NCBI RefSeq assembly: GCF_028561335.1
Contig: NZ_JAQQTG010000049.1
Coordinates: 1-64,000, forward strand
DNA length: 64,000 nucleotides
Source of the DNA: Aequorivita todarodis
GTDB lineage: Bacteria > Bacteroidota > Bacteroidia > Flavobacteriales > Flavobacteriaceae
Reading direction: 5' to 3'
Shown in pieces: positions 7,371-30,220 of this stretch; the stretch's first letter is position 1; each line of letters opens with the position of its first letter. The translations under genes were made by a program, and so were the position numbers. The notes under the pieces are model-generated. The model was not told where the DNA came from. It ran no database searches and saw nothing but the letters and a program-made list of their open reading frames with translations.

Positions 7371-7457
7371 AAACGGGAGGCAAAAATAAACAATTATTTA
7401 TAATTTACTTAAAAATTTATCCAGCTATTTTTTTAAAAATCACTAACTATTAATTTT

Positions 7458-7493: not shown

Positions 7494-8432
7494 ATGTCAA
7501 CCGCTGTTCCGGAACCAAAGATTTTTGCCTGTAAACAAAGTGAAGAGCTCGCGCAGGACATTGCAGATGCCTTCGGAATACCTTTGGGAAAGGTAATAAC
7601 ATCTCATTATAGCGATGGTGAATTTCAGCCTTCCTTTGAAGAATCCGTTCGCGGAAGTCGCGTCTTTTTAATTGGTTCCACCTTTCCGAACAGCGACCAT
7701 TTAATGGAGCTTTTGCTGATGATAGACGCCGCAAAGCGAGCTTCGGCAAGACATATTACAGCCGTATTGCCTTACTTTGGTTGGGCGCGTCAAGATCGAA
7801 AAGATAAGCCGCGTGTGCCGATTGCCGCAAAGTTGGTCGCAAAAATGCTTGAAACCGCAGGAGCAACACGTATCATTACAATGGATTTGCATGCAGACCA
7901 GATTCAAGGTTTCTTTGAAAAACCAGTGGACCATCTTTTTGCCTCAACCATATTTCTTCCTTATTTAAGAAGTTTTAAACTTGACAATCTTACAATAGCT
8001 TCTCCTGATATGGGCGGTTCAAAACGTGCCTATGCCTATTCAAAATTTTTGGAAAGCGATGTGGTAATCTGCTACAAGCAGCGTGAAAAAGCAAATGTAA
8101 TCTCGCACATGGAACTGATTGGTGATGTAAAAGGGAAAAACGTCGTTTTGGTTGATGATATGGTTGATACAGCCGGCACCCTCACTACCGCTGCCGATTT
8201 GATGATGGAGCGCGGTGCTTTGAGTGTTCGCGCGGTTTGTACGCACCCATTGCTTTCTGGAAATGCTTACGAGCGAATTGAAAAATCGCAAATGCTCGAA
8301 CTGATCGTTTCAGATTCCATTCCTACCAAACCGAGCAAGAAAATTAGGGTTATAAGTTGCGCAAAATTGTTTGCAGATGTTATGTTGAGCGTAAATGCCA
8401 ACAAGTCTATAAGCGGCAAGTTTTTAATGTAA
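7494..8432 (+). CDS. prs: Ribose-phosphate pyrophosphokinase
   Basis: 312 aa, the usual length. It makes phosphoribosyl pyrophosphate (PRPP) from ribose 5-phosphate and ATP for nucleotide, His and Trp synthesis in the cytoplasm. Visible motifs are PYFGWARQDRKD (ATP-binding loop, about 94-105), MDLHADQIQGFF (about 130) and the PRPP loop VVLVDDMVDTAGT (about 215-227). The -7 element upstream and the hairpin downstream make it a single-gene unit. The hairpin overlaps the promoter of the next gene. Confidence 0.97.
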   Translation: MSTAVPEPKIFACKQSEELAQDIADAFGIPLGKVITSHYSDGEFQPSFEESVRGSRVFLIGSTFPNSDHLMELLLMIDAAKRASARHITAVLPYFGWARQDRKDKPRVPIAAKLVAKMLETAGATRIITMDLHADQIQGFFEKPVDHLFASTIFLPYLRSFKLDNLTIASPDMGGSKRAYAYSKFLESDVVICYKQREKANVISHMELIGDVKGKNVVLVDDMVDTAGTLTTAADLMMERGALSVRAVCTHPLLSGNAYERIEKSQMLELIVSDSIPTKPSKKIRVISCAKLFADVMLSVNANKSISGKFLM

Positions 8433-14542: not shown

Positions 14543-16786
14543 CTACGCTTTTTTATAGCTGGTGTAATACTCTTCCATCAAATTCATCAAAGCTTTTACC
14601 AAATCCTTGGTTTCGAGCAACAGGCTGAAATACAAAGTGGTGTTTTTCGGGCTCGATTCTTCGGTGCGGGTTCGGGCTATCTGCTTTTCAATCTTGTTTG
14701 AAAGACTTGCGAAGATTTCCTCTTTTTTAGAAAGTACATTCCCGATTCGCTGGAATTCTTTTTTGTGGAAAATATCCTCAATTTCATTTAAGAGTTCTTC
14801 CAAATGTTGGTCTATTTCCTGCAAATCTTTAATTTGGTTGAAGCGAAGCGCTTTGTGATTGTTGTTCACATGCTTGTAACTCGCCTTCGAAATGAATTCC
14901 AAGGACTGCACAACATCGGTCAAATACCCTAAAATCACGATATAGAAATTACTTCCCCGGACGCTGGTTTCGTCAAGATTCTTAATGAAATAGAAAATGT
15001 TGTCGCGCAGTTCTTCCACTTCATCGTTCAATTTATTTACCCCTTTTTTGCTCTTTTTCAGTTTTTTGGTGTCCTGTTTGGCAAGGCCGCGAAGCATATC
15101 GCTGTAAATTTTGTTGGAACGTGAAACCACATTGCTGATGTTTTCGGCACTTTCCTGGATTATTCCCTGAACGGTTTTGCTTTCGGTTTTCTTCAAGCCA
15201 CTTTTATCCAGTTTTAGTTTCACTTTGTTTTTGTGCGAAAGATAATTCCGAACCAACAAAAGGATAGCCAATAACAGCAATACGGCAATCATTGCGCCCC
15301 TTCCTATATAAATTAAATAGGCGAGCGTTCCTGCAGCAACAAAAGCTACAAAAGCCGTAAAAAACCAACCGCCGATAACGTTGAGCACGCCGGCAACCCT
15401 GTAAACTGCGCTTTCACGGCCCCATGCTCTGTCGGCCAAGGATGTACCCATAGCCACCATAAAGGTTACATAGGTTGTGGAGAGCGGCAATTTCATAGAA
15501 GTTGCGGTTGCAATCAATATACCTGCAACCATTAGGTTTATGGAGGCACGGATCATGTCAAAAGCAGGCAACTCATAGGTTTTATGCTTCGGAAGGTTAA
15601 CAACGGGTTTTTCAAACCGCTTGTCTATTTTTGTTTGAAGCGATTTGGGGAGAATGAACTCAAAATAGGTCGCAATCTGGGTGCTCGATTTTACCAAAAA
15701 CCGCGAAAGCATATTCGGGCTGAACTTTTCGTGCCCTTCGCCTTGACGTGCAAGGTCTATCTCGGTATCAGAAACGGTACGTGCTTTTTTGGAAAACCAA
15801 AGGGTAAGTACCATAATACCACCCGCAATAAATAGAAGCAAGGGTTCTGCGGGCACCTGATCTGCCAGACTGTGCATATTGTAATCTGAAGCCGCCACCC
15901 CGGAAGCTGCCCAATCTATGTAACTATGGTAGGCCGCCATCGGTACGCCTATAAAGTTTACCAAATCGTTCCCCGCAAACGCCAGGGCAAGACTGAAAGT
16001 ACCTACAGCAATTACGATTATGAGAATGTTCTTTTTGAAAATCATCATAAAAAGCTGTGAGAATACCGTCCAGAATATGAAGCTGCCGCCGATAAGCAAC
16101 CAAGTGTCGCTTTCAATAATGTTTTTAAAACTTCCGTAAAATGGCGTACCCTTTAATCCTTTTACGAGGATGAAATAACTAATACAGGTAAGGGCCAAAC
16201 CACCAAAAATAGCCCCGAAATATTTCATCTTCCGTTCTACATGAAATGTAAACACGAGCCTTGAGAGGTACTGCACGACCGCACCCACGGTAAACGCAAT
16301 TACCACGGAGAGTAGGATTCCCGTGATGATTTCTACCGCTTTTTCGGTGTTGATGTATTTTGTGATGGCTGAAATGGTCTCCGCATCGTTATGGCCTATT
16401 TTTATCAATGCCATAATAACGGCAGCTCCCAAAAGTTCAAAAACGATGGAGACCGTGGTAGATGTGGGCAACCCAATAGTGTTAAAGAAATCGAGCAGTA
16501 AGATATCGGTTATCATTACCGCCATAAAGATGATCATGATTTCATCAAAGTAAAACTCGCCGGGGACAAAGATACCTTTCCGCGCTACTTCCATCATCCC
16601 GCTTGAGAAAACGGCCCCAATGAAAATTCCCAAACTGGCGATTATCAAAATGGTCCTAAAGGAAAGTGCCTTGGAACCGATGGCGGAATTTAGAAAGTTT
16701 ACGGCATCGTTACTTACCCCAACCACCAAATCTGCAATAGCAAGTGCGGCAAGCGCCACGATCATTAATAAGTAGATATTATCCAT
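14543..16786 (-). CDS. PiT family inorganic phosphate transporter
   Basis: 747 aa. Two PiT signature repeats are visible: GVSNDAVNFLNSAIGSKAL near 23-41 and FAGNDLVNFIGVPMAA near 270-285, with GLPTSTTVS (about 105) and KLPLSTTYVTFMVAMGTS (about 428-445). About 11-12 membrane helices run to residue 515. The rest (520-747) is a long helical, coiled-coil domain resembling the DUF47/PhoU-like proteins that usually accompany PiT transporters, here fused to the permease. It imports phosphate with a cation. It lies 74 nt downstream of an OprP-like porin gene and has its own candidate Pho-type operator. Confidence 0.92.
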   Translation of the reverse strand: MDNIYLLMIVALAALAIADLVVGVSNDAVNFLNSAIGSKALSFRTILIIASLGIFIGAVFSSGMMEVARKGIFVPGEFYFDEIMIIFMAVMITDILLLDFFNTIGLPTSTTVSIVFELLGAAVIMALIKIGHNDAETISAITKYINTEKAVEIITGILLSVVIAFTVGAVVQYLSRLVFTFHVERKMKYFGAIFGGLALTCISYFILVKGLKGTPFYGSFKNIIESDTWLLIGGSFIFWTVFSQLFMMIFKKNILIIVIAVGTFSLALAFAGNDLVNFIGVPMAAYHSYIDWAASGVAASDYNMHSLADQVPAEPLLLFIAGGIMVLTLWFSKKARTVSDTEIDLARQGEGHEKFSPNMLSRFLVKSSTQIATYFEFILPKSLQTKIDKRFEKPVVNLPKHKTYELPAFDMIRASINLMVAGILIATATSMKLPLSTTYVTFMVAMGTSLADRAWGRESAVYRVAGVLNVIGGWFFTAFVAFVAAGTLAYLIYIGRGAMIAVLLLLAILLLVRNYLSHKNKVKLKLDKSGLKKTESKTVQGIIQESAENISNVVSRSNKIYSDMLRGLAKQDTKKLKKSKKGVNKLNDEVEELRDNIFYFIKNLDETSVRGSNFYIVILGYLTDVVQSLEFISKASYKHVNNNHKALRFNQIKDLQEIDQHLEELLNEIEDIFHKKEFQRIGNVLSKKEEIFASLSNKIEKQIARTRTEESSPKNTTLYFSLLLETKDLVKALMNLMEEYYTSYKKA

Positions 16787-16808
16787 TCTGGTTTTTATTA
16801 AATTGGTG

Positions 16809-16854
16809 CAAATTTCCCATTTAAATCAGGAATGATTGTTACCAAATTGTTATC
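16809..16854 (-). promoter_or_regulatory. Candidate PhoB-like operator and -7 element upstream of PiT
   Basis: Read on the minus strand: GATAACA (16854-16848), 4 nt, GGTAACA (16843-16837), 4 nt, a degenerate TTCCTGA (16832-16826), then 9 nt and the -7-like GAAATTTG (16816-16809). Two near-identical heptamers every 11 bp is the geometry of PhoB/OmpR family direct repeats. The same spacing to -7 is seen upstream of the porin and lipoprotein genes. Confidence 0.5.
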
Positions 16855-16860
16855 TGTATT

Positions 16861-18075
16861 TTAAAAATCTATTTGAAAGCGCCCCTGTAAAATTGTTGCG
16901 TTTCCTTGGTCTTTAATATCTGCCCAAATATAGTTTACCATTAAACGGGTTGCCGGATTCAAATACCAATTCAAGCCCAAAGCAAGGTCCGACTGTTTTC
17001 CGCCAAAGATTGATTTATCGGTCAAATCTGTTTCCGAATAACGCACAGCCACCTCCCAAGCTCCGGCGCCGCTGGCTTTTCCGCCGAAATTTCGATTGGG
17101 TTTTACCCTGTCAAAACCTTCGTATGAACTTTTATAGTTTTTGCTTTCACCCGTTATAAAAAAGCTCGCTTCGCCATAAAAATTGGAAAAAGCGAAGTCA
17201 TCGGCAATGGTTTTTACGGTAGCGTTTAAATATTCCCCCTGAAAAGAAAACGGCCCGTGTACGTACGCCGCCTCGTAATTCGTGAGGGCAATACTTTCTA
17301 CATCTTCCAAAATTCCGGTAGAAATATATTTGGGAGCCAAATACGCGCCGGGTCTTATAGCAACTTGGTACGCTTTGCTCTCTGGTTTTCTGTAGCTGTG
17401 TGCTGCGCCCAAATGCAATAATTGTCTTTTTTCTATATTTCGTATTGCCAGACCGGTCATTCTTCCCGTTATCACATAGCCATCATCGGCAAAGGCATCG
17501 TCGCTGCTGTTGTTTGCATTTCGAAAAGCCCCCACCTGGGCAGATAGACGCTGGGCTAAAAAATCGTTCAGCAAAAGGATACCGTTGTTGCGGCTTTGGG
17601 CGAAGGCATCATTTTGGCCCGGCTCCATAAAAGTGGTGTATTTGCTGCTGTTTAGGGCCGATAGCCGAAAAGGTTCCTTAAAATGCCCAATCATAATGTT
17701 GCCTACAACAGGAATATCGCCCACTCCAATGTACACATCCTTTAGCTCCGTTTCATCACCGGCAAAATCTACTTGAAATTTGAAGAAAGTATGTTCATAA
17801 ATAGTTCCAGAGAAAAATAACCTTGCCCGTCTTATCTCGGTCCCGCTTTTTGCTTCAAGGGGGCCATAGGTTTCATTGAGGGCGCTATTTTGGAAGAGGT
17901 AGGCGTGGTCCACCATAATCCGACCGCCGAATTTTAATTTAAATTGCTGGTCCTGACTTTCCAATTTAAATCCGTTGTCCCATTTAAAAGAAAAGGGATT
18001 GCCGGGTGTTTCCTGCGAAAACGTAGTAAAAAAAGAAAACACCAAGGCACTGAAAAGGAAGTGCTTACGCTGCAT
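16861..18075 (-). CDS. Phosphate-selective porin (OprO/OprP family)
   Basis: 404 aa. A signal peptide (MQRKHFLFSALVFSFFTTFSQ) precedes a beta-rich protein with the OprP family opening (FSFKWDNGFKLES, LKFGGRIMVDHAYLF) and many alternating amphipathic strands ending in aromatic F (GRFQIDF), as in a 16-stranded outer membrane barrel. RRARLFFSGTIYEHTFFKFQVDFAG near 83-107 is a family hallmark. It should let phosphate, or pyrophosphate in OprO-like members, cross the outer membrane, feeding the PiT transporter encoded just downstream. An 11-bp-periodic operator-like array lies upstream. Confidence 0.9.
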   Translation of the reverse strand: MQRKHFLFSALVFSFFTTFSQETPGNPFSFKWDNGFKLESQDQQFKLKFGGRIMVDHAYLFQNSALNETYGPLEAKSGTEIRRARLFFSGTIYEHTFFKFQVDFAGDETELKDVYIGVGDIPVVGNIMIGHFKEPFRLSALNSSKYTTFMEPGQNDAFAQSRNNGILLLNDFLAQRLSAQVGAFRNANNSSDDAFADDGYVITGRMTGLAIRNIEKRQLLHLGAAHSYRKPESKAYQVAIRPGAYLAPKYISTGILEDVESIALTNYEAAYVHGPFSFQGEYLNATVKTIADDFAFSNFYGEASFFITGESKNYKSSYEGFDRVKPNRNFGGKASGAGAWEVAVRYSETDLTDKSIFGGKQSDLALGLNWYLNPATRLMVNYIWADIKDQGNATILQGRFQIDF

Positions 18076-18103
18076 TGAAAATCAGTTTTAGTTTTTGTCG
18101 CCA

Positions 18104-18149
18104 CAAAGGACTGATTTTATGGCAAATTGAATGTTTCTTTAATGTTAAG
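18104..18149 (-). promoter_or_regulatory. Candidate PhoB-like operator and -7 element of the porin gene
   Basis: Minus strand: CTTAACA (18149-18143), AGAAACA (18138-18132), ATTTGCC (18127-18121), each separated by 4 nt, then 9 nt and -7-like GTCCTTTG (18111-18104). Register and distance equal those at the PiT and lipoprotein genes. The same stretch is part of a perfect 11-bp inverted repeat (TTTAATGTTAA/TTAACATTAAA, 18139-18174). Confidence 0.5.
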
Positions 18150-18181
18150 TTAACAGGGTAATATTAACATTAAAATTCAAA

Positions 18182-18210
18182 GAAAAGGGCTGTGCAAATA
18201 GGCACAGCCC
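18182..18210 (-). terminator. Orphan intrinsic terminator in the porin upstream gap
   Basis: A perfect 9-bp stem with a 6-nt loop, followed on the minus strand by TTTTCTTT. No annotated minus-strand gene ends here. Confidence 0.6.
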
Positions 18211-18341
18211 AATTTGAAAATCTAGTCGACAAAAACTAAACGATTTCAAAAATTGCCCAATATAATAGGCAATTACAAAGAAAATCTATCGATCATAACT
18301 TAGTGTGAAGATAGCTTTACCAAATCATTAAGATATTGATT
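18182..18341 (-). ncRNA. Candidate small RNA upstream of the porin gene
   Basis: The gap between the porin and the MORN-like gene is 400 bp and has no coding frame. On the minus strand it holds a -7-like AGTCCTTTGT (about 18346-18355, ten bases shared with the porin promoter). It then has a hairpin AATTGCC/GGCAATT (about 18249-18273) and a 9-bp GC-rich hairpin, GGGCTGTGC/GCACAGCCC (18187-18210 on the plus strand), followed by TTTTCTTT, which looks like an intrinsic terminator. No gene on this strand needs that terminator. Together they outline a transcript of roughly 160 nt. The start is a guess. Confidence 0.3.
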
Positions 18342-18389
18342 CGAAACAAAGGACTATTTTTAAAACACTGAAAATAAACAGGTTAAAGG

Positions 18390-18446
18390 TTTAATGTTAA
18401 GTTAACGTTACCAAATGGTTTCGTAAGCGTTAATTTTGTAAATTTG
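18390..18446 (+). promoter_or_regulatory. Candidate PhoB-like operator and promoter of the MORN-like gene
   Basis: Plus strand heptamers TTTAATG (18390), GTTAACG (18401), CAAATGG (18412) and GTAAGCG (18423) repeat every 11 bp and end 9 nt before TAAATTTG (18439-18446), a perfect -7. A second -7, TAATTTTG (18431-18438), overlaps. The 17-nt TTTAATGTTAAGTTAAC here is repeated exactly at 18139-18155 in the porin upstream region. Confidence 0.45.
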
Positions 18447-18475
18447 ATTATTCTGAAAATCTAAAACTTCGAAAA

Positions 18476-18835
18476 ATGAAAAATTTAATCACCCTTTTTG
18501 CAATCGTATTAACAGTTTCAATGGCATTTGCACAAAATGCTAATAAAAACACGTATTATTTGGATGGCAATGTGATTAAGGCAACAATATATCACGATAA
18601 TGGAACGGTTGCACAAACTGGCTACTATACTGCAGACAATAAGCTAACTGGAGAATGGGTGAGCTATGATTTTAACGGTAATAAGACTGCCATTGCGCAA
18701 TATAATAATGGTGAAAAAGTGGGCACGTGGTATTTCTTTACAAATGAAGACATAAAAGAAGTTTCTTATGCTGATGCCCGTATTGCCAAGGTTGTAACTT
18801 GGAAATCTGACGATATTCAAATTGTTTCTAATTAA
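18476..18835 (+). CDS. Small exported MORN-repeat protein (YwqK-like)
   Basis: 119 aa. The signal peptide MKNLITLFAIVLTVSMAFA is followed by short Gly-Trp/Tyr repeats of MORN type (GTVAQTGYYTADNKLTGEWVSYDFNGNKTAIAQYNNGEKVGTWYFF, described here by its repeated G-x-W/Y pattern at about 43-88). Such YwqK-like proteins are often automatically called toxin-antitoxin components, but no partner toxin is here. The upstream repeats shared with the porin suggest that phosphate limitation may induce it. Function unknown. Confidence 0.75.
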   Translation: MKNLITLFAIVLTVSMAFAQNANKNTYYLDGNVIKATIYHDNGTVAQTGYYTADNKLTGEWVSYDFNGNKTAIAQYNNGEKVGTWYFFTNEDIKEVSYADARIAKVVTWKSDDIQIVSN

Positions 18836-18855
18836 ACTCTAATTCTATTATACAT

Positions 18856-18887
18856 AAAAAACCCTAGCTCAAATGCTAGGGTTTTTT
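18856..18887. terminator. Bidirectional terminator between convergent genes
   Basis: AAAAAACCCTAGC and GCTAGGGTTTTTT (18856-18868, 18875-18887) form a perfect 13-bp stem with a 6-nt loop. It ends the MORN-like gene (plus) and the TonB receptor gene (minus). Confidence 0.9.
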
Positions 18888-18906
18888 ATTTTTCAAGTAA
18901 TACATT

Positions 18907-21738
18907 TTAAAATTTGAGTGAGTAGCCCAAACTAATTTCTTGTCCCGGACTCCATTTGGAAAATAGTTGATCTTCTGCTCCAAACGATTGATAAACGCTT
19001 TCAATATCGTCATTTAATAAGTTGTCAAACTTTAAGGATATTGTTGAATTTCTGTTTGATCCAAAGCTTTTTGAAATGTTCAGTTTCACATTGTGAAAGG
19101 GCATTGTATAAACATCTGCCACATCTCCTGCGCCTACAATTTGAAGGGTTTTTCCCTGAGTATTGTAGAAAAGGCCTCCTTGGAGTCCAGTTTCCGCATA
19201 TTTATAATTGAAGCCAAGGTTTATTAAATAAGGGCTTTGGCCTTGCAATTGTCTATTGTCGTCAAGAGTTTCACCGGTACGTAAATTATCTAGCCTTCCT
19301 TCCCTTTCGTCTTCACTGTACTGCTGTTGCGATTCTATAAGTGAGAAATTTAAATTAAAATCTATATTCTGTAAACCGCTTATAAACCCGAGATTTTTTC
19401 TTATTTCTAGCTCACCCCCAAAAACTTTTGCGTCTCCTAAGTTTAGTGGCGTGTATTGTCCATATGCCCTTCTGATAAATGAAAGCTCAATAGGATCAGT
19501 AAAAGATTTATAGAATCCGCTTATTGCGAAGAAATCTCCTGCTTCTCCATATTGTTCGTATCTAATGTCAAAATTATTTACATAAGTAGGCTGAAGGTTT
19601 ATATTGCCAATAAATGTGGTACTGCTTATTGGGTCAAAAATTTCGGCGAGTGAGGCTTCTTTAAATGAAGGTCTTGCCGTAGTTATTGAATAGGAAGTAC
19701 GTATTTTTTTGTTTTCATCTTCATTCAAATCAAAAATTAGATTTGCCGATGGGAAAAAGTCGGATTTTTCTAAAATTTTGGTATCTTCCAGTCTGGTTCC
19801 GTCCTGTCTTTCACCTGTGTAAATCAAGTCGAATTTTTCAAACCGCACCCCTAAAGCTGCATTCATCCAATTTGTTACCTTAAATTCTTCAGCTATATAC
19901 CCTGCTGCGATTTGTATTTTTGAATTGTAAGAATCTGAATCGTTGGAGTCTTGGCGCACATAGGTTCCGCTATTTGTATTTGGGTCATAAATATTTTCTG
20001 GGATCAATAGTTGGTTTGGATTACCTCCAAATGTTGCCGACGAAAAATTAAGCAACGGCAAAGAGTATTTTATTACTTCAAAGTCTCTTTCTTTTTGGGT
20101 AAAGGCACCGCCAATTTTAGCTTTTGCTTCAAAGCCAAAAAGATTGTGATCCTTTTCAAGGCCAATTTTTCCGGCAAGATTTAACTCTTCAAGTGATCTA
20201 AAAAATCTGGAGGCATCGCCAGATTCACTTGGCTCAATTGTAAATACTTCCTCGCCCGTATTGGGATTTATTGATACTCTAAATGGAGTTGTGCGAAAAT
20301 CTTTATCGTCCACCTTGGCAAGGGAGGGCGATAGGTTCCATTCCAAATTCCAGTCATTATTACTGCCAAGGGTATGTGTGCCTTTTAATAGTCCATTTGT
20401 AATGGATCTCTGAACGTAGGTTAGGTTGTCTTTTTTAATCGTATTGCTGCTAACTATAAAATTGTCCAGCCTAAAAATGCCCGCTTCAGATTCTCCATTT
20501 TGGATGTGAAGTACATTAAATTGATATTTTGATTTTTCGGTTTTAAATGTTAATCCACCAAGGGCGCTAATTAAAACGGTGTTGTTTCCTAACTCACCAG
20601 TTTGTGTGCGGTCTGCTAAAAGTTCAAAATTAGATCTGTCTGATTCGTCTTTTCTGTATAGCTGGCCATTGATGTATTCATCGTAATACTTTGTTTCATT
20701 TCGGTATGACACTGATGCCAAATACCCTAATTTATTTTCGCCTACATCAAATTGATCTCCCGCTGTTATAGCAAAGTTATAGTTCATAAAACTTTGTTCC
20801 CGCTCTGCTGCCATTTGTGGGTTAAACCGTTGGGTTAAATCTCGAACAAGCTCTCCGTCCTGTTGCGGTAAAGGCACTTGTTGCGATTGGGGAATAGGAT
20901 TGTCCCTTAGCCCGTCATCAAAACCTAAAAAGTCTGTACCACTTTTATCGCCTGTTAAGTAGTTGTTTTTGAAATGAAAATCAGCGTTGTAGCCCACTCC
21001 AAGCGAAATACTATATTCAGCCCTGCTAGGAATGTCCTTGGTTACGATGTTTATTACACCGCCGGTAAAGTCGGCTGGCTGGTCTGCAGTTGCAGATTTG
21101 GTAATCAATACATTTTCTAGAATTTGTGAAGGAAAAATATCCAGTTGCAGTGTATTTCTATCAGGGTCCAAACCGGGCACTTCCATGCCATTTAGTATGG
21201 ATTTTGTGTATCGGTCTCCTAAGCCCCTAACATACACGTATTTTCCTCCTTGTACCGAAACGCCCGGAACGTTTTGAACTGCTGAAGCCACATCGCTTGC
21301 ACCAGTTTTTTTAATGGATTCCAAAGACAAGCCATCCATTAGGGTAACTGAGTTTTTCTGAATGCTTAAAACAGAAGCTTCTGTATTTTTACGGGCAGTT
21401 GTGGTAACAACCACTTCATCCAGTTGTCCAGCAGAAGCATTAAGCGTAACATCAACAGTTGTGGTTTGGCCTGGATTTATTTTTACTTCTGTAATTTCCT
21501 TAGTTTGATATCCAACGAACGAGAAAACAAGTGTGTAAGTTCCAGCATCTAACTTTAGGTTGTACTTGCCATCAAAATCAGAGGTTGTTCCCGTTTGTGA
21601 ACCTTTCACAATAACGTTTGCAAAAGAAAGCACGTCATTATATTCACCATCATTTATAACCCCCGTAACAACACCTGTTTGTGAAAAGGAAATTTGAAAT
21701 AAAAACATTGCAATAAGCAATGGGAAAATATTTTTCAT
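18907..21738 (-). CDS. TonB-dependent receptor with carboxypeptidase-regulatory-like N-domain
   Basis: 943 aa. The signal peptide MKNIFPLLIAMFLFQISFS is followed by a CarboxypepD_reg-like domain (about 22-105, GVINDGEYNDVLSFANVIVKG, YTLVFSFVGYQTKEI), then the plug (about 110-235) with a TonB-box-like LDEVVVTTTAR. The 22-strand barrel ends in aromatic LGYSLKF. It takes up a ligand across the outer membrane using TonB energy. It lies 92 nt downstream of a beta-helix lipoprotein gene and is likely its operon partner, as SusC-like receptors pair with surface lipoproteins. The lipoprotein is not SusD-like. The shared Pho-like promoter suggests a phosphorus-containing substrate. Confidence 0.92.
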   Translation of the reverse strand: MKNIFPLLIAMFLFQISFSQTGVVTGVINDGEYNDVLSFANVIVKGSQTGTTSDFDGKYNLKLDAGTYTLVFSFVGYQTKEITEVKINPGQTTTVDVTLNASAGQLDEVVVTTTARKNTEASVLSIQKNSVTLMDGLSLESIKKTGASDVASAVQNVPGVSVQGGKYVYVRGLGDRYTKSILNGMEVPGLDPDRNTLQLDIFPSQILENVLITKSATADQPADFTGGVINIVTKDIPSRAEYSISLGVGYNADFHFKNNYLTGDKSGTDFLGFDDGLRDNPIPQSQQVPLPQQDGELVRDLTQRFNPQMAAEREQSFMNYNFAITAGDQFDVGENKLGYLASVSYRNETKYYDEYINGQLYRKDESDRSNFELLADRTQTGELGNNTVLISALGGLTFKTEKSKYQFNVLHIQNGESEAGIFRLDNFIVSSNTIKKDNLTYVQRSITNGLLKGTHTLGSNNDWNLEWNLSPSLAKVDDKDFRTTPFRVSINPNTGEEVFTIEPSESGDASRFFRSLEELNLAGKIGLEKDHNLFGFEAKAKIGGAFTQKERDFEVIKYSLPLLNFSSATFGGNPNQLLIPENIYDPNTNSGTYVRQDSNDSDSYNSKIQIAAGYIAEEFKVTNWMNAALGVRFEKFDLIYTGERQDGTRLEDTKILEKSDFFPSANLIFDLNEDENKKIRTSYSITTARPSFKEASLAEIFDPISSTTFIGNINLQPTYVNNFDIRYEQYGEAGDFFAISGFYKSFTDPIELSFIRRAYGQYTPLNLGDAKVFGGELEIRKNLGFISGLQNIDFNLNFSLIESQQQYSEDEREGRLDNLRTGETLDDNRQLQGQSPYLINLGFNYKYAETGLQGGLFYNTQGKTLQIVGAGDVADVYTMPFHNVKLNISKSFGSNRNSTISLKFDNLLNDDIESVYQSFGAEDQLFSKWSPGQEISLGYSLKF

Positions 21739-21830
21739 AAAAATATATTTATAAAATTTGCCCGTCTTCTTTTAGAAAGACGAGCAAATTGCTAATTGAT
21801 TTAAAACAAGTTAAATGAGAATACAAATTT

Positions 21831-23087
21831 TTAGAAAGCTCCTTTAGATTGTGTGTAAGTCCAAGTAAAGTTTGAAAGATTGGCTCCTCCTGAATTTCCA
21901 GAGTTTGCCCAAGAAGCAGCTCTTTCAGTAAATGATGGATTAAGGATTATCGGTGTTTCGCCTTCGCCAGTTTTTTCAACAAAAATGTCATTAGCGTTAG
22001 CAACACCACTAGGTAAGCTTACAGTCCAATTTGAAAACGATAGCTTTCCATTGAGGAAGTTTTGTGCCACTGCATTGTTGTCTAACTCTACATCAGAATC
22101 TGCTTTAAAACCTACTGCATAAATGTTTTTTAGGGTGCCCATTGCTCTGTCGCGCAAATCTGCATATTCGCCATTTTCTGTAGTAGTATTTCCGATTAAC
22201 GTGATACCGTCCAGTGTGAATTTTCCTTCCAACGATCCTGCTGGGCCGTCAATTTCTAAAGCGTGGTCTGAAACATTTCCTAAGATTGCAACGGAATTTG
22301 AAATTGTACCGGAATAAGCCTCGTCTATATCAAGGGCATCATCACCGCAGGCCCAAACTATTGCGTTTGAAACATTTACAGATCCTCCGAACCACTCGAT
22401 GCCATCATCCACATTTGCTACAACTTCAATGTTTGAAATAGAAGTTCCTGTTCCCACGGCTCCAAGTGTAAGACCGTTAATTTCATTACCATCCCCAATA
22501 GAAGTACCTCCGTGGCGAATGGAAACATAATTCAAAGTACCTGAATCATCTGCATTATCAGATCCTCCATAAAGACCATTCGTGTCACTGGCTGGAATAC
22601 CTTCAATTTGGTTTTCAAGGGCATCACCAGACAAAGAGGCTTTTGCCTTACCTAATATTATAACACCGCCCCAAAGGCCTCTGTCATTTTCAGTAAGATT
22701 AGTGCCAAATTTTTGTCCCAATGCTATATTATCTGCAATTGAAGTAAATATAATTGGCTTATCTGCCGTTCCATTAGCTTCAATTTTTGCACCTCTAGCA
22801 ATAATAAGTACAGCAGCACTAGCTTCTTGACCCGCATAGGCTTTTATTATTGTTCCTTCATTAATGGTTAAGGTAGCGCCGGAGGTAACTGTTACACGGC
22901 CATCAAGTTCCCAAATAACATCATTGGTTAATGTCATGTCTGATGTAATTTGACCAGATAGTTTATTGTTTACGGGATCTGGGTCTGGATCAATAATTGG
23001 TCCGTCGTCATTACTGCTGCAGCTAACGCTAAGCACAAGAGCAAAAATCGCTATTAGAGGTAAAAAGAATTTTTTCATTAGTTTCAT
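21831..23087 (-). CDS. Surface lipoprotein with predicted right-handed beta-helix
   Basis: 418 aa. The lipobox LSVSC lies about residue 20-24, followed by an acidic SSNDDGPIIDPDPDP linker of the type that marks surface-exported lipoproteins in Bacteroidetes. The rest is built of short repeated strands with Ile/Val/Asn-Gly turns (TLTINEGTIIKAYAG, ISNIEVVANVDDGIEWFGG, SVNVSNAIVWACGDDALDID), as in parallel beta-helices. DxD-rich turns (DDALDIDEAY) may bind calcium. It has no SusD similarity. Two in-frame ATG codons (23087 and 23078) both fit; the first is given. It is the first gene of the operon with the TonB receptor. Confidence 0.8.
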   Translation of the reverse strand: MKLMKKFFLPLIAIFALVLSVSCSSNDDGPIIDPDPDPVNNKLSGQITSDMTLTNDVIWELDGRVTVTSGATLTINEGTIIKAYAGQEASAAVLIIARGAKIEANGTADKPIIFTSIADNIALGQKFGTNLTENDRGLWGGVIILGKAKASLSGDALENQIEGIPASDTNGLYGGSDNADDSGTLNYVSIRHGGTSIGDGNEINGLTLGAVGTGTSISNIEVVANVDDGIEWFGGSVNVSNAIVWACGDDALDIDEAYSGTISNSVAILGNVSDHALEIDGPAGSLEGKFTLDGITLIGNTTTENGEYADLRDRAMGTLKNIYAVGFKADSDVELDNNAVAQNFLNGKLSFSNWTVSLPSGVANANDIFVEKTGEGETPIILNPSFTERAASWANSGNSGGANLSNFTWTYTQSKGAF

Positions 23088-23115
23088 CTTAATTTTATAG
23101 ATTAATTTCTTGGGG

Positions 23116-23161
23116 CAAAGATGGTTCTCTTATGTAAGGTTTGTGTTAAACTGAAGTTACC
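23116..23161 (-). promoter_or_regulatory. Candidate PhoB-like operator and -7 element of the lipoprotein-TonB operon
   Basis: Minus strand: GGTAACT (23161-23155), TTTAACA (23150-23144), CCTTACA (23139-23133), each separated by 4 nt, then 9 nt and CATCTTTG (23123-23116), a one-mismatch -7. This is the clearest three-repeat example of the array shared with the porin and PiT genes. Confidence 0.55.
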
Positions 23162-23263
23162 AGTTCGTCATTTTAGGGTTAGCTAAACGTTAAGCCGAAA
23201 CCAAAAAAAATTGATTGGTTTGCCTTTTGAAAATAGTATCTTGCCTACAAAATTTTTAAAATT

Positions 23264-24595: not shown

Positions 24596-24757
24596 AAAGA
24601 CCTCTTTGGGGTAAGAGGGAATTGTGTTAAATATCAGCTTTTTAGTAAAATTTCGAAAATTTTACAATAATTTTAAAAGAGCTAAAGCATACCCAATTGA
24701 CATTGTTTCAATTTGTTATGGCTTATTAACTTCGCTAAAAACTTAATCTATGGTCCT

Positions 24758-27346
24758 ATGAAAAAAATTCTTTACTTATTCATCATTTTTACCGCCAATC
24801 TTTCCTTCGCACAGGATTACAGTGGCGTGATAAAAACATATCTTGAGCAAAACCGATCAGCGTATTCGTTACAGCAGCAAGATATTTCAGACATTTCAGT
24901 GGTATCACAAAGTTTCTCAACGAGCATGCAGGCCTATACTGTTTATGTAGAACAACGATACCAAGGCATTAAATTGTTTAATTCCACTTCCCCTTTTTTG
25001 GTAAAGGATGGGGCGGTTGTAAGCGCAAAAGTTTCATTTACCGAGAACATTGCTTCAAAAGTCAATGGAGTAAATCCCGCATTAACAGCAAATATAGCCA
25101 TTGCAAAAGCGGCTGCCGCACTTGGGCTGGATGCACCTTCCAATTTAGAATTGCTTCAACAGGGAATGGATAATACCTATATTTTTTCCGATGGAAATAT
25201 TTCATTGGAAAATATTCCCGTACAGTTGGTCTATCAAAAAATGGAGAATGGCAATTCTTTAAGACTGGCTTGGGATTTAAGTATCTATTTACGCGATGCA
25301 AGCCATTATTACAGTGTGCGTATGGATGCGACGACCGGGGACTTGCTGGAAACTATGGATTGGGTTTCGCAATGCCATCTGCCTGATTTTTCTGCGACCC
25401 ATAAGCACGGCTCAAAAAACAACGAAAGTATTTTGATGGGAAACCATACTTCAATCAAAAAAAACACACTTGTAGATGCCCAATATCGGGTTTTTGCGTT
25501 GCCATTGAGAAACCCGGACGATGGGCCAGACACCTTGGTGATCAATCCTGAAGATGCAACGGCCTCCCCGTTTAAATGGCATGACACAAATGGTGCTGCA
25601 GGTGCCGAATACACAATTACACGAGGAAACAATGTTTATGCATATTTGGATTTGTGCGATACAGATTCGGGAGATTCACCCGATGGTGGGCCTACTTTGA
25701 ATTTTGATTTTCCTTTTAACCTGCCTCAGGCTCCGGCTAACTTTAGAGATGCTTCAGCCGTGAATTTGTTTTATTTGAATAATACCATTCACGATGTAAT
25801 GTACCAATATGGTTTTGATGAAGCCAGCGGCAACTTTCAGGAAAACAATTATGGCAATGGCGGTAATGGCAGCGATTCAGTAAACGCAGAAGGGCAGGAT
25901 GCCGGCGGAAACGACAATGCAAACTTTGCAACCCCACCGGATGGCGGTAACCCAAGAATGCAAATGTACCTTTGGGGTGCAAGTTCTGCACCGGTTGCAA
26001 ATATTTTTACAATTAATGGCGGCCCTCTTGCCGGAACCTATAGTGGTGTTGCCGCGGGTTTTGGAGCAGGAATCCCTATAAATCTGACCCAAGATTTAGT
26101 TTTGGTGGAGGATGATGACGCTGGTCCCTCTTCCGACCCGAATGACGGTTGCGACAATATTACGAACGGGCCGTCCATAAATGGGAAAATTGCCGTAATA
26201 AGAAGAGGGGAATGTGAATTTGGATTTAAGGTTTTGGCCGCGCAAAACAACGGTGCCGTTGCAGCTATTATTGTAAACAATGTGGCCGGCAATCCACCGC
26301 TTATGGGTGGCGGCGTCTTTGGCTGCCAAGTTACAATTCCGGCATTTGCCATTTCAAATGTTGATGGAGAGCCTATAATAACTCTTTTAGACGGTGGTGG
26401 TTCCGTAAACGGGACAATAAACGGGACAGATGTTCCGGTAAGCCGTGACGGCGATCTTGACACTGAAGTTGTTGTACATGAATATGGCCACGGAATCTCA
26501 AACCGACTTACCGGCGGGCCTAACAATACAGGATGCCTGCAGAACGAAGAACAAATGGGAGAGGGCTGGAGCGATTTTTTCGCATTGGTGATGACAATCT
26601 ATAATGGAGACCAAGGAGCAGATGTAAGGCCGATGGCCTCTTACGCCTCTGGCGATCCCAATGGAATCAGGACCCATCCTTACAGTACAAATTTTGGTGT
26701 AAATCCACATACTTATGACGACATTAAAACCGAAGTTGCCCCACACGGAGTGGGATCGGTATGGGCAGCGATGCTTTGGGAAATGACGTGGGATTTAATA
26801 GATGAATACGGTTTTGATCCGGATATTTACAATGGAAATGGCGGTAACAATGTAGCATTGCAACTGGTAATCGATGGTTTGAAACTACAGCCCTGTAGCC
26901 CGGGATTTGTGGATGGAAGAGATGCTATTCTTGAAGCAGATGTATTGGCCAACGGTGGCGCAAACAGATGTATTATTTGGCATGCTTTTGCCAGAAGAGG
27001 CCTTGGGTTAAGTGCAAGTCAAGGAAGTTCATCCAGCAAGTCTGACGGCACTGAAGCTTTTGATGTACCTGTTGATTGCCAATTAGGAACAAACGATAAT
27101 GGTAGCATTAAGAATTTCATAATCTATCCAAACCCGTCCAAGGGCGAAATAAACATTATGTCTAGAGTTGATGTGGGCAACGCAACCCTTTCTATATTTG
27201 ATATAAATGGCAGAAAAGTCTTTACCCAGCAAGTAGAGCTCCATAACAGCACAAGCATTCAGGCAGGGGGGCTTAATGCAGGGGTTTATTTGATAAAGAT
27301 AGAAAGTGAAAATAGCACACAAACTTCTAAATTAATTATCAATTAA
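24758..27346 (+). CDS. M36 (fungalysin-like) metallopeptidase with PA domain and T9SS sorting domain
   Basis: 862 aa from the ATG at 24758 (MKKILYLFIIFTANLSFAQ signal peptide). A start 45 nt upstream would bury the signal. Order: an N-terminal propeptide (FTP-like, about 20-185), the catalytic core with an inserted PA domain (about 430-550, GKIAVIRRGECEFGFKV), the zinc site VVVHEYGHGISNRL near 573 and the downstream ligand in QMGEGWSDFF. A C-terminal T9SS type A domain (YPNPSKGEINIMSRVDVG to LIIN, last ~75) follows. It should be exported to the surface or medium and degrade proteins. The adjacent gene is a close paralogue. Confidence 0.92.
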   Translation: MKKILYLFIIFTANLSFAQDYSGVIKTYLEQNRSAYSLQQQDISDISVVSQSFSTSMQAYTVYVEQRYQGIKLFNSTSPFLVKDGAVVSAKVSFTENIASKVNGVNPALTANIAIAKAAAALGLDAPSNLELLQQGMDNTYIFSDGNISLENIPVQLVYQKMENGNSLRLAWDLSIYLRDASHYYSVRMDATTGDLLETMDWVSQCHLPDFSATHKHGSKNNESILMGNHTSIKKNTLVDAQYRVFALPLRNPDDGPDTLVINPEDATASPFKWHDTNGAAGAEYTITRGNNVYAYLDLCDTDSGDSPDGGPTLNFDFPFNLPQAPANFRDASAVNLFYLNNTIHDVMYQYGFDEASGNFQENNYGNGGNGSDSVNAEGQDAGGNDNANFATPPDGGNPRMQMYLWGASSAPVANIFTINGGPLAGTYSGVAAGFGAGIPINLTQDLVLVEDDDAGPSSDPNDGCDNITNGPSINGKIAVIRRGECEFGFKVLAAQNNGAVAAIIVNNVAGNPPLMGGGVFGCQVTIPAFAISNVDGEPIITLLDGGGSVNGTINGTDVPVSRDGDLDTEVVVHEYGHGISNRLTGGPNNTGCLQNEEQMGEGWSDFFALVMTIYNGDQGADVRPMASYASGDPNGIRTHPYSTNFGVNPHTYDDIKTEVAPHGVGSVWAAMLWEMTWDLIDEYGFDPDIYNGNGGNNVALQLVIDGLKLQPCSPGFVDGRDAILEADVLANGGANRCIIWHAFARRGLGLSASQGSSSSKSDGTEAFDVPVDCQLGTNDNGSIKNFIIYPNPSKGEINIMSRVDVGNATLSIFDINGRKVFTQQVELHNSTSIQAGGLNAGVYLIKIESENSTQTSKLIIN

Positions 27347-27369
27347 ATACGGGTAATTTTTATAGGTAA

Positions 27370-27400
27370 AGAGAGGCCTTATAGCGGCCTCTTTTTATTT
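27370..27400 (+). terminator. Terminator after the first M36 gene
   Basis: AGAGGCC pairs with GGCCTCT (27372-27378, 27386-27392), followed by TTTTATTTT. The rest of the 285-bp gap to the second protease gene is AT-rich with no clear feature. Confidence 0.85.
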
Positions 27401-27631
27401 TCTATAGGAAATACTAACCATTTGACACCTAAGTTTTGAAGAGTCGAAATAGGGCTCAAAATTAAAATATTGGAATATTACACGTCTAAATATGTTAAAA
27501 AATGAGTTGAAGAAGGTTTTATAGCCAATTTTATGATATTTTTATAAATTCTATTTTTGGAAATTTTATATCAACATTTTTTTTGATCAATCATTTCTGA
27601 TCGTAATCACCTAAAAACTTAATTTTATCTT

Positions 27632-30220
27632 ATGAAAAAAATTCTTTACTTACTTGTCATTTTTGCTGTAAATGTTTCCTTTGCACAGGATTACAGCACT
27701 GTGATAAAATCGTACCTTCAACAAAACAGAGCGCAGTATTCGCTACAACAGCAGGATATTTCGGATATTTCAATTGCTTCCCAGAGTTTGTCAAAAAGCA
27801 TGAAAGTCCACAATGTTTATGTTGAACAACGCTACCAAGGCATTAAATTATTCAATTCGGTTTCCCCATTCGTTATAAAAGATGGGGCTGTAATAAGCGC
27901 GAAACTTTCTTTTACTGAAAATGCTGCTGCAAAAGTAAACAGCACTTCCCCGTCTATTTCCGCGGTAATGGCAATATCAAAAGCTGCAAACGGGCTTGGT
28001 CTGGAAAATCCTTCAAATCTTAATTTATTGGAAACAATTTCAGATAACAGCTACATTTTTTCCAATGGCAATATTTCTCTTGAAAACATTCCCGTAGAAC
28101 TTGTTTATCAAAAAATGGATGAAACGGGCGCATTAAAACTTGCTTGGGATTTGAGTATCTACCTACTGGATGCCTCACATTATTACAGTGTTCGTGTTGA
28201 TGCCCTTACTGGGGAATTATTGGATACAAACGATTGGGTGGTGAGCTGTAATTTTGAAGGATCGCACTCCCATACCAATTCAGGCAGTATGCTTTTCTCA
28301 AATACTAAAGTAAACCATTCAAGCCGCACGCTTGGCGATGGTTCTTCGTATCGTGTATTTCCTTTGCCGCTGATTGCTCCTAACGATGGAGACGACCAGA
28401 TAGTTTCTGACCCTTCCGACCCTATCGCTTCCCCATTTGGATGGCATGATTGGGATGGAGTAGCCGGTCCAGAGTTTACGGTAACTAAGGGTAACAATGT
28501 TCTGGCAAATGAAGACCGAAACGGTAACAATGGTAATGGTGATACCGCTGAAGGTGGCCCAACACTTACCTTTGATTTTCCTTTTGACCTTCCGCAGGTT
28601 CCAGTTAACTTTTTGGATGGGGCGATTACCAATTTGTTTTATATGAACAACATGATGCACGACATTCTTTACCATTACGGTTTTGATGAGGCAAGCGGAA
28701 ACTTCCAAAAAAACAACTATGGCAACCCGGGCAATGGAAATGACTTTGTTGTTGCCGATGCGCAGGATGGCAGTGGCCTGAACAACGCAAACTTTGGAAC
28801 CCCACCTGATGGTGGCGCACCAAGAATGCAAATGTATCTGTGGAGTGCCCCAGGCAAAGTATTGGGAACTTTTCTTACCGTGAATAACGGTCCGTTGGCT
28901 GGTGTTTATTATGCAGCCGATTCCAATTTTGCACCTGAATTACCGGTTTCTCCCATAACTGCAGATTTAGTGGTGATTGAAGATGACGGAGGCGATCCGA
29001 ACGACGGTTGTAACAATGTAACCAACGGGGCTGATTTGAACGGTAAAATTGTTGTAATCAGAAGAGGAACTTGCGCTTACAACATAAAAACCCTCGCTGC
29101 ACAAAATGAGGGTGCGGTAGCTGTAATAGTTGTGAATGACGTTCCCGGAGACCCTCTTGCAATGGGAGGAAATGGTTCCGGCATCACAATACCTGCTATT
29201 ATGGTCTATCAATCAGACGGAGAGGCATTGATTACCTCACTTCTAAATGGAGATACCATAAACGCCACTTTAAAAAATGACGGTTCAGGAAATGATCCTT
29301 TCCAAAGAGATGGCGATCTTGACAATGTGATTATCGCACACGAATACGGCCATGGCGTTTCCAACCGTTTAACCGGTGGTCCAAACAATACTGGCTGTCT
29401 TCAAAATGAAGAACAGATGGGCGAAGGTTGGAGCGATTATTTTGGACTGATACTTACAATGAAGCCAGGTGACACCAGAAACGACTACCGAGGTATAGGT
29501 ACCTATGCCCTGGGTGAAGGAATAGGTGGAAGAGGCTTGAGAACCAAATATTACAACACAGACTTCGCAGTAAATAATTTTACATACAATAGCATTAAGA
29601 CCCAAGCAGTTCCTCACGGGGTAGGCTCCGTTTGGACAACCATGCTTTGGGATTTAACTTGGGATTTGATTGACCAATACGGTTTTGACCCAGATATTAA
29701 AAACGGAACCGGCGGTAATAACATTGCGCTTCAACTTATTATGGACGGAATGAAACTTCAGCCTTGCAGCCCGGGATTTGTAGATGGGCGTGATGCTATC
29801 CTGGAAGCAGACCAACTTCTTTATGCAGGGGCTAACAGATGTCTTATCTGGCGTGCTTTTGCCAAGAGAGGTCTTGGAGAAAATGCTTCCCAAGGAAGTA
29901 CCAACAGCAGATCCGATGGAACAGAGAATTTTGATATTCCAGTAGGATGTGAGTTAGGTATTTCTGATAATGACGCTAACAAAATCAATTTCATAGTATA
30001 TCCAAATCCTTCAAATGGAGAACTTAGCATCAAATCTCGAATAGATGTTGGAGAAGCTACAATCTCTATTTTTGATATGAACGGTAGAAAAGTGTTCAAC
30101 CAAACAATTGAACTTCACCAAAGCGCGACCATCAATGCATCTGCGCTTACTTCAGGTATCTACTTGATGCAGATTGACAGTGCTGACCGTTCGCAGACAA
30201 CTAAATTGATAATCAACTAA
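27632..30220 (+). CDS. M36 (fungalysin-like) metallopeptidase, tandem paralogue
   Basis: 862 aa with the same architecture as its neighbour: signal peptide MKKILYLLVIFAVNVSFAQ, propeptide, core with PA insertion (GKIVVIRRGTCAYNIKT), zinc site IIAHEYGHGVSNRL near 569, GEGWSDYF, and a T9SS C-terminal domain ending TKLIIN. The two proteins are collinear and very similar throughout, and their leaders share CTAAAAACTTAAT just before the ATG, so the duplication included the translation start region. Both active sites are intact. Differences cluster in the loops after the propeptide and in the PA domain, suggesting different substrates or export timing. Confidence 0.92.
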   Translation: MKKILYLLVIFAVNVSFAQDYSTVIKSYLQQNRAQYSLQQQDISDISIASQSLSKSMKVHNVYVEQRYQGIKLFNSVSPFVIKDGAVISAKLSFTENAAAKVNSTSPSISAVMAISKAANGLGLENPSNLNLLETISDNSYIFSNGNISLENIPVELVYQKMDETGALKLAWDLSIYLLDASHYYSVRVDALTGELLDTNDWVVSCNFEGSHSHTNSGSMLFSNTKVNHSSRTLGDGSSYRVFPLPLIAPNDGDDQIVSDPSDPIASPFGWHDWDGVAGPEFTVTKGNNVLANEDRNGNNGNGDTAEGGPTLTFDFPFDLPQVPVNFLDGAITNLFYMNNMMHDILYHYGFDEASGNFQKNNYGNPGNGNDFVVADAQDGSGLNNANFGTPPDGGAPRMQMYLWSAPGKVLGTFLTVNNGPLAGVYYAADSNFAPELPVSPITADLVVIEDDGGDPNDGCNNVTNGADLNGKIVVIRRGTCAYNIKTLAAQNEGAVAVIVVNDVPGDPLAMGGNGSGITIPAIMVYQSDGEALITSLLNGDTINATLKNDGSGNDPFQRDGDLDNVIIAHEYGHGVSNRLTGGPNNTGCLQNEEQMGEGWSDYFGLILTMKPGDTRNDYRGIGTYALGEGIGGRGLRTKYYNTDFAVNNFTYNSIKTQAVPHGVGSVWTTMLWDLTWDLIDQYGFDPDIKNGTGGNNIALQLIMDGMKLQPCSPGFVDGRDAILEADQLLYAGANRCLIWRAFAKRGLGENASQGSTNSRSDGTENFDIPVGCELGISDNDANKINFIVYPNPSNGELSIKSRIDVGEATISIFDMNGRKVFNQTIELHQSATINASALTSGIYLMQIDSADRSQTTKLIIN

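Follow-up and report, generated by a model that had tools for sequence, protein, structure and literature searches.

The trans-acting small RNAs (sRNAs) MicF, MicC, and RybB control porins in enterobacteria, and most known porin sRNAs act as repressors; members of the OmpR family of regulators often bind 11-bp repeats. The Pho box is described in PMC4415409 as 11-nt direct repeats, each with 7 conserved and 4 looser nt, and the SphR units are given in PMC1906773 as CTTAACCT with 3-nt spacers. For Flavobacterium johnsoniae, Table 1 of PMC8115612 reports that phosphate depletion induces a TonB receptor (+8.0 log2), a lipoprotein with a pectin-lyase fold (+9.9), and a glycosyltransferase (+5.4), and phosphate control of the receptor and the lipoprotein is thus already known for that species. 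The present analysis concerns the first 64,000 nucleotides of contig NZ_JAQQTG010000049.1 of Aequorivita todarodis (Flavobacteriaceae; assembly GCF_028561335.1, genome of 3.33 Mb), referred to as the window. In it, a lipoprotein gene with a TonB receptor gene, a small MORN-like gene on the opposite strand, a gene for an OprP-type porin, and a gene for a PiT transporter follow one another, an order with comparable counterparts in many relatives, and an unannotated sRNA gene bearing an operator and a terminator lies between the MORN-like and porin genes. This is quite probably a phosphate-starvation cluster run by a PhoB-type regulator, in which the sRNA would pair with the porin mRNA and repress it.

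The heptamers that a preliminary description of this DNA had reported at 11-bp intervals are all present at exactly those steps in the PiT, OprP, lipoprotein-TonB, and MORN promoters, and the 9-nt gap that it had noted between the last unit and the -7 element recurs in all four and also in the sRNA promoter, as last unit, 9 nt, and NNNNTTTG, with TTTG 13 nt downstream. On the minus strand, the PiT gene (PF01384, Pfam match 1.1e-28; 14543..16786) is preceded by GATAACA, GGTAACA, and TTCCTGA at 16826..16854 and by the -7 element GAAATTTG at 16809..16816, at a spacing that 50 porin promoters of other genera also have; the OprP gene (Porin_O_P family, PF07396, 2.2e-45; 16861..18075) by CTTAACA, AGAAACA, and ATTTGCC at 18121..18149 and by GTCCTTTG at 18104..18111; and the sRNA gene by CTTAATG, GGTAAAG, CTTCACA, and GTTATGA, again in 11-bp steps, at 18293..18332 and by a -7 element ending in TTTG at 18276..18283. 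Two arrays differ from the account first given of them. The three lipoprotein-TonB units GGTAACT, TTTAACA, and CCTTACA are real, but the promoter has six in phase, CTTAACG, GCTAACC, and AATGACG being the others (23133..23194, minus strand; by eye, conserved in relatives), with the -7 element CATCTTTG at 23116..23123. The plus-strand MORN array TTTAATG/GTTAACG/CAAATGG/GTAAGCG is present with the same spacing to its -7 element TAAATTTG (18439..18446, plus strand), but the site fits far better on the minus strand, facing away from MORN, in 25 of 25 MORN rows; there it reads ATTAACG, CGAAACC, GGTAACG, and CTTAACA (18395..18434) and might act towards the sRNA or as a repressor site for MORN. The 11-bp arrangement exceeds what chance would give: among minus-strand pairs of TAAC in the window, a spacing of 11 is the commonest, with five pairs (one of them inside the TonB gene) against zero to three at the other spacings from 5 to 24; the plus strand has one pair at spacing 11.

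The 50 distinct porin promoters of other genera, aligned on TTTG, have the consensus TTAAtc-N5-GAAACA-N5-TTAACA-N13-TTTG, that is, three units with an 11-bp period and fixed spacing; the same fixed distance from unit to NNNNTTTG is found in this consensus, though by eye not at phoB. By eye, too, the window, L002, and L007 have 11 nt more between the porin operator and the -7 box than L001, L003, L004, L005, and L006 have, a shift by one helical turn, as would follow if the side of the helix were important. A 52-column matrix built from the 50 promoters was applied to both strands of the window, where seven of the eight best positions are cluster promoters: OprP (28.9, rank 1), PiT (6.6, rank 2), MORN on the minus strand (3.5), sRNA (1.2 and 0.3), and, at ranks 7 and 8, MORN on the plus strand (-3.4) and lipoprotein (-3.6). 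The sole non-cluster position (7380-7431, score 1.4) is without TTTG and lies upstream of a ribose-phosphate pyrophosphokinase-like gene at 7494. The best scores of 20 Markov-simulated windows average -5.7, the largest being 4.5, a level that is passed by OprP and PiT but not by the sites of MORN, sRNA, and lipoprotein. For the operator-only matrix the simulated maxima average 7.3 and reach 13.3; only MORN (32.0, rank 1, and 15.6) lies above them all, PiT (12.3), OprP (11.0), and sRNA (10.5) lie over the mean and under the largest, and lipoprotein (4.0) falls short of the mean. The case for the lipoprotein site therefore depends on its six-unit phase and on conservation in relatives. The sRNA site, weak on the full matrix at 1.2, reaches 17.4 when the spacing is extended by 11. 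A scan of 884 kb of the host (26.5% of the genome: the window, the phoB region, and 40 sampled stretches) places six of the seven best operator-only positions in this cluster; on the full matrix OprP, PiT, and MORN take ranks 1 to 3 and the sRNA rank 6, and a glycosyltransferase gene adjoining phoBR has a weak site (6.9, rank 16). Simple patterns were tried on the host genome and rejected: three units with a -7 box at up to 3 mismatches gave no match, and TTAACA-N5-TTAACA-N13-TTTG at up to 3 mismatches gave 107 matches against 162 for the reversed control; since the two-unit pattern is not enriched, the matrix was used instead.

The predicted sRNA gene, of about 89 nt, occupies 18183..18271 of the minus strand, as delimited by alignment, fold, and family search (the covariance model matches 18183-18275). 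Positions 18183-18270 fold with a z of -7.64, the intrinsic terminator (18187..18210, followed by a T run at 18183-18186) shows compensatory changes in 9 of 9 modelled pairs (51 sequences), and TTTTGTC is invariant across 51 aligned sRNA sequences. The RNA would thus consist of a 5' hairpin, a conserved core UUUUGUC, and the terminator, made from its own operator-bearing promoter upstream of the porin. The block TTTAGTTTTTGTCGACTAGATTTT with a terminator stands about 140 nt before the porin leader, on the porin-ward strand, in 17 of 19 same-genus genomes; the two in which it was not seen (G005 and G024) have the most divergent PhoB. The RNA is kept in many related genera: at E <= 0.01 the covariance model matches 116 of 397 genomes of the family. 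Seventy of the 71 best-ranked matches were examined (a second match in G102 was left out), and the seed is present in 61; the nine without a real seed are taken as false positives, and the 116-genome count is therefore expected to include false positives too. A leader of the form (C/T)GACAAAAA(C/T)T, behind a -7 box, follows 114-165 nt downstream of the seed in 54 of the 61, and a porin of the locus is matched (E <= 1e-10) by 53 of the 54 leader-bearing genes, the gene of L160 being the exception with only 33 codons read. In four of the seven other seed-bearing loci the same strand carries the porin, its leader motif kept, at a distance of 2.8-3.1 kb downstream; at these (L142, L143, L168, and L205) carbonic-anhydrase-like and SulP-like transporter genes, named by eye, stand on the other strand between sRNA and porin. 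The porin is on another contig in one of the remaining three, and no porin was found in the other two, one of these genomes being 76% complete. Among 20 longer regions, 19 carry a recognised porin gene as the next one, and PiT or pst genes come afterwards in 19; the exceptions are L226, which stops at a contig edge, and L223, whose 335-aa gene matched neither porin. No gene-like coding frame was seen by eye in the three frames of the sRNA strand at 18151-18330. All Rfam matches to window positions 16500-19000 at E <= 1 are below gathering scores, and eight other sRNA loci gave none at the gathering score. The porin matrix also fits the 71 distinct sRNA upstream regions (mean 9.0 sense, -15.4 antisense, and -22.7 shuffled), so that the sRNA and the porin most likely share a regulator, if these promoters are active as predicted.

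The seed of the sRNA, TTTAGTTTTTGTCG (18227..18240, minus strand), is antisense to the start of the OprP leader (18087..18100, minus strand) in an exact 14-nt match, and the host genome contains the 14-mer CGACAAAAACTAAA exactly two times, once in the porin leader and once, as the complement, within the sRNA. Because the -7 box is reported to span -12 to -5 (PMC9723704), the porin mRNA is predicted to start at the G of CGACAAAAACT (18099); it would begin with GACAAAAACU, and the seed would meet its first nucleotides. Seed and leader co-vary, as is expected of a trans-acting base-pairing sRNA. Over 51 distinct native seed-leader pairs the mean energy is -20.95 kcal/mol against -17.25 kcal/mol when partners are swapped, with none of 10,000 permutations as good, and the 3 nt next to the core are in agreement in 39 of 54 pairs, where 15.1 would be expected, neither figure taking account of kinship. 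In a phylogeny of 53 porins, both seed and leader change on 11 of 104 branches where 3.3 are expected (P about 5e-6), and 9 of the 11 finish in exactly complementary states. At L015 the seed is shortened and altered, and the leader matches it exactly over 15 nt. It may be added that an alternative TonB gene (L120 12621-15449 and relatives) begins with CGACAAAAATG, whose 9 nt complement the seed of the sRNA and are limited to close relatives; this start is a possible second target.

These features can be combined into a mechanism. The PhoB-type regulator would bind head-to-tail TTAACA-like units in 11-bp steps, which would replace the -33 element 9 nt before the Bacteroidota -7 box, at the promoters of PiT, the porin, the lipoprotein-TonB pair, and the sRNA, with an additional array facing the same way beside MORN. 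Both the sRNA and the porin mRNA would be made in starvation, and the pairing of the sRNA would take in roughly 13 nt at the very beginning of the porin mRNA and most likely block ribosome access to a short leader that has no Shine-Dalgarno sequence. Starvation would then turn on both pore and brake, in an incoherent feed-forward loop that would give a pulse, a cap, or a quick shut-off. With moderate confidence this can be extended to an sRNA dispersed across the Flavobacteriaceae, which would be co-induced with its target and would cap the phosphate porin of a porin-pst or porin-PiT operon by pairing at the 5' end. The main rival, somewhat unlikely in our estimation, has the sign reversed: the sRNA would activate the porin in a coherent loop, by shielding the 5' end from decay or by opening translation. 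An operator on both the sRNA and the porin promoter is equally to be expected in that case, and pairing at the extreme 5' end, from the predicted +1 at 18099, leaves about 11 nt before the start codon; however, in a leader of about 24 nt the duplex should overlap the initiation zone, and the porin sRNAs known from other bacteria mostly repress. Repression by the sRNA is the preferred sign, with the pairing site as its basis.

The operator is linked to phosphate genes. In the genus of the host, mean operator-matrix scores of upstream regions, each compared with its own shuffles, are 13.9 against -3.1 for phoB (28 loci), 10.0 against -5.6 for PiT (23), 15.1 against -4.1 for OprP (21), 18.9 against -4.2 for the other porin type (9), 24.4 against -1.2 for MORN (19), 13.3 against -4.5 for lipoprotein (8), 5.3 against -7.7 for the other TonB type (11), and 5.2 against -7.1 for pstS (8). 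The alkaline phosphatase family PF00245 was rejected as a regulon member, being hardly above its shuffles (-3.1 against -6.4, 27 loci); since the PhoU and PstS families also have no match in the host genome, the regulon seems narrow. The proposal that this is the Pho box of Flavobacteriaceae is partly supported, by the geometry and by the place before the porin, PiT, phoB, and porin-pstSCAB-phoU runs. In the 884 kb the matrix puts the MORN, PiT, porin, and sRNA sites at the top and the lipoprotein site lower. The phosphate control that had been proposed for the TonB and MORN-like genes agrees, for the former, with the induction of the TonB and lipoprotein counterparts in F. johnsoniae reported in PMC8115612, which by domain families and setting would be the same genes as those of the host, but the MORN array faces away from MORN, which may be activated, repressed, or a bystander. 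In three sister genomes (G016, G001, and G019) pstSCAB-phoU lies between porin and PiT, and the operator precedes the porin of the run. pstSCAB-phoU stands behind the porin at L119, L120, L121, L223, and L224 but has no PstS or PhoU match in the host, which points to a gain or loss of high-affinity phosphate uptake at one locus. The pst genes of G011 and G014 (L122 and L123), in another gene setting, were set aside; this second, distant pst set lies beside methyltransferase and radical-SAM-like genes, which resemble genes of arsenosugar synthesis.

The arrays are best read as Pho boxes to which a PhoB-type protein would bind. The OmpR-type DNA-binding domain has three matches in the host. One regulator has the PhoB models TIGR02154 and NF053854 as its two best NCBIfam families, and its gene sits with those for a PhoR-like kinase and a PF04101 glycosyltransferase, on a different contig from the porin; in another genus (L220) a 79% identical PhoB gene comes after the sRNA-porin-PiT run. 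A weak Porin_O_P relative is found about 10 kb from phoB (L124 16223-17566) and also near phoB in G011, G023, and G004. A different regulator of the OmpR family, for instance one of the two that resemble RprY, is improbable as the reader of the arrays: three such domains are indeed available and 11-bp repeats are common targets of the family, but the genes served are those of phosphate transport and phoB itself, and for the remaining two regulators RprY is the best match (284.1 and 233.2 bits, in each case under its cut-off of 370), ahead of PhoB. PhoB thus remains the favoured candidate. It is less probable still that no sRNA acts and that the seed and the leader form a pair of inverted DNA sites belonging to a single protein or to a looping element, which would also account for complementary sequences that change together and for the palindromic GTCGAC core; one of the sites lies between a promoter and a terminator whose stem shows compensatory changes, the other lies at the predicted mRNA start, and the two can be kilobases apart, as at the four loci above. 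Equally remote is an attenuator of the porin operon, formed in cis by read-through from the sRNA promoter, since, despite the common strand and short distance of sRNA and leader in 54 loci, the porin has its own conserved promoter and opposite-strand genes intervene in four genomes.

Several points weigh against the reading of a PhoB-run cluster with a repressing sRNA, besides the neglect of kinship in two of the pairing tests. The sign of the control is a guess from position. The stability of the seed hairpin was dropped as weak evidence (mean z -1.35; 12 of 71 below -2). On the porin tree the seed alone changes on 4 branches and the leader alone on 12; at L002/L130 the sRNA seed is kept and the leader changed, and at L013 a leader-like motif is present with no sRNA within 700 nt. 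The lipoprotein site has full-matrix rank 15 in the 884 kb (rank 6 with spacing extended by 11). The phoB operator points away from its gene in all 29 rows, the host's own being counted twice (L053 and L124), and the phoB site of the host has low scores (2.3 in sense, 3.9 in antisense); the PhoB-like regulator is under the curated cut-offs of both its models (216.5 against 296.2 and 206.8 against 270). Finally, OprP of F. johnsoniae is not induced by phosphate depletion in the data given in PMC8115612 (-1.3, false discovery rate 0.25).

The other genes of the cluster are less clearly characterized. The small MORN-repeat-like protein of 119 aa (18476..18835, plus strand) has a signal-peptide-like start, judged by eye, and a MORN_2 match of 25.2 bits, under the cut-off of 29.6. 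On the minus strand, 18907..21738 encodes a TonB-dependent receptor with a carboxypeptidase-regulatory-like domain (PF13715, PF07715), and 21831..23087 a lipoprotein-like protein, possibly a right-handed beta-helix, which matched no Pfam family; its structure model is of low confidence (predicted local distance difference test 64.7), and a Foldseek search with it gave no match at E <= 0.001, the weak matches being mostly tailspikes, pectate lyases, and polygalacturonases. The porin of the window has its best matches in the named genome collection among Aequorivita species. At L135 (G002) the MORN, TonB, and lipoprotein genes are 99-100% identical to those at 18476-23087 of the window, and the adjoining porin is of the other type, 66% to OprPb, so that the porin looks to have been exchanged as a cassette. 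Farther along, at 24713-30220, are two secreted metalloprotease-like genes in tandem with an HEYGH motif, presumably of the fungalysin type.

In the literature searched, with subscription journals mostly outside it, no Pho operator of Flavobacteriaceae was found, and no description of this sRNA was found in a search that had the supplementary tables of the F. psychrophilum transcriptome outside it. The analysis therefore offers a usable definition of the Pho box for this family, and a previously undescribed sRNA with a named target and evidence of co-variation, and it makes post-transcriptional control of phosphate uptake in Bacteroidota directly testable. If the mechanism is true, bacteria without Shine-Dalgarno sequences have a built-in brake on phosphate uptake.

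MicF, MicC, and RybB of enterobacteria are likewise short terminated RNAs whose seed is directed at an outer-membrane porin leader. The present sRNA differs from them in that its target is a phosphate porin and its seed lies at the first mRNA nucleotides, and in that its gene mostly adjoins that of the target and has the operator of the target. Rfp18 and other sRNAs of Flavobacterium psychrophilum, as presented in PMC9723704, are also conserved structured sRNAs of the same bacterial family; Rfp18 is reported there to act on metalloproteases through its third stem-loop, and it is by the description of this target, not by sequence, that the host sRNA is set apart from it. The PHO regulon of F. 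johnsoniae, in the account of PMC8115612, has phoBR, OprP, a TonB receptor, a pectin-lyase-fold lipoprotein, and a PF04101 glycosyltransferase in one cluster, whereas phoBR and the porin of the host are on separate contigs; the words "promoter" and "motif" do not occur in the main text of that paper, and its account of the regulon contains no sRNA. As for the operator, the Pho box of PhoB, PhoP, and SphR (E. coli, Streptomyces, and Synechocystis) is described as having the same 11-nt repeats, its definition of at least two units holds here, and the SphR units as published are near in sequence to those of the window arrays. The window arrays are distinguished from this known Pho box by units of the TTAACA/GAAACA type, by as many as six of them in one array, by their spacing to the Bacteroidota -7 box, and by the direction of the phoB and MORN arrays, which point away from the gene.

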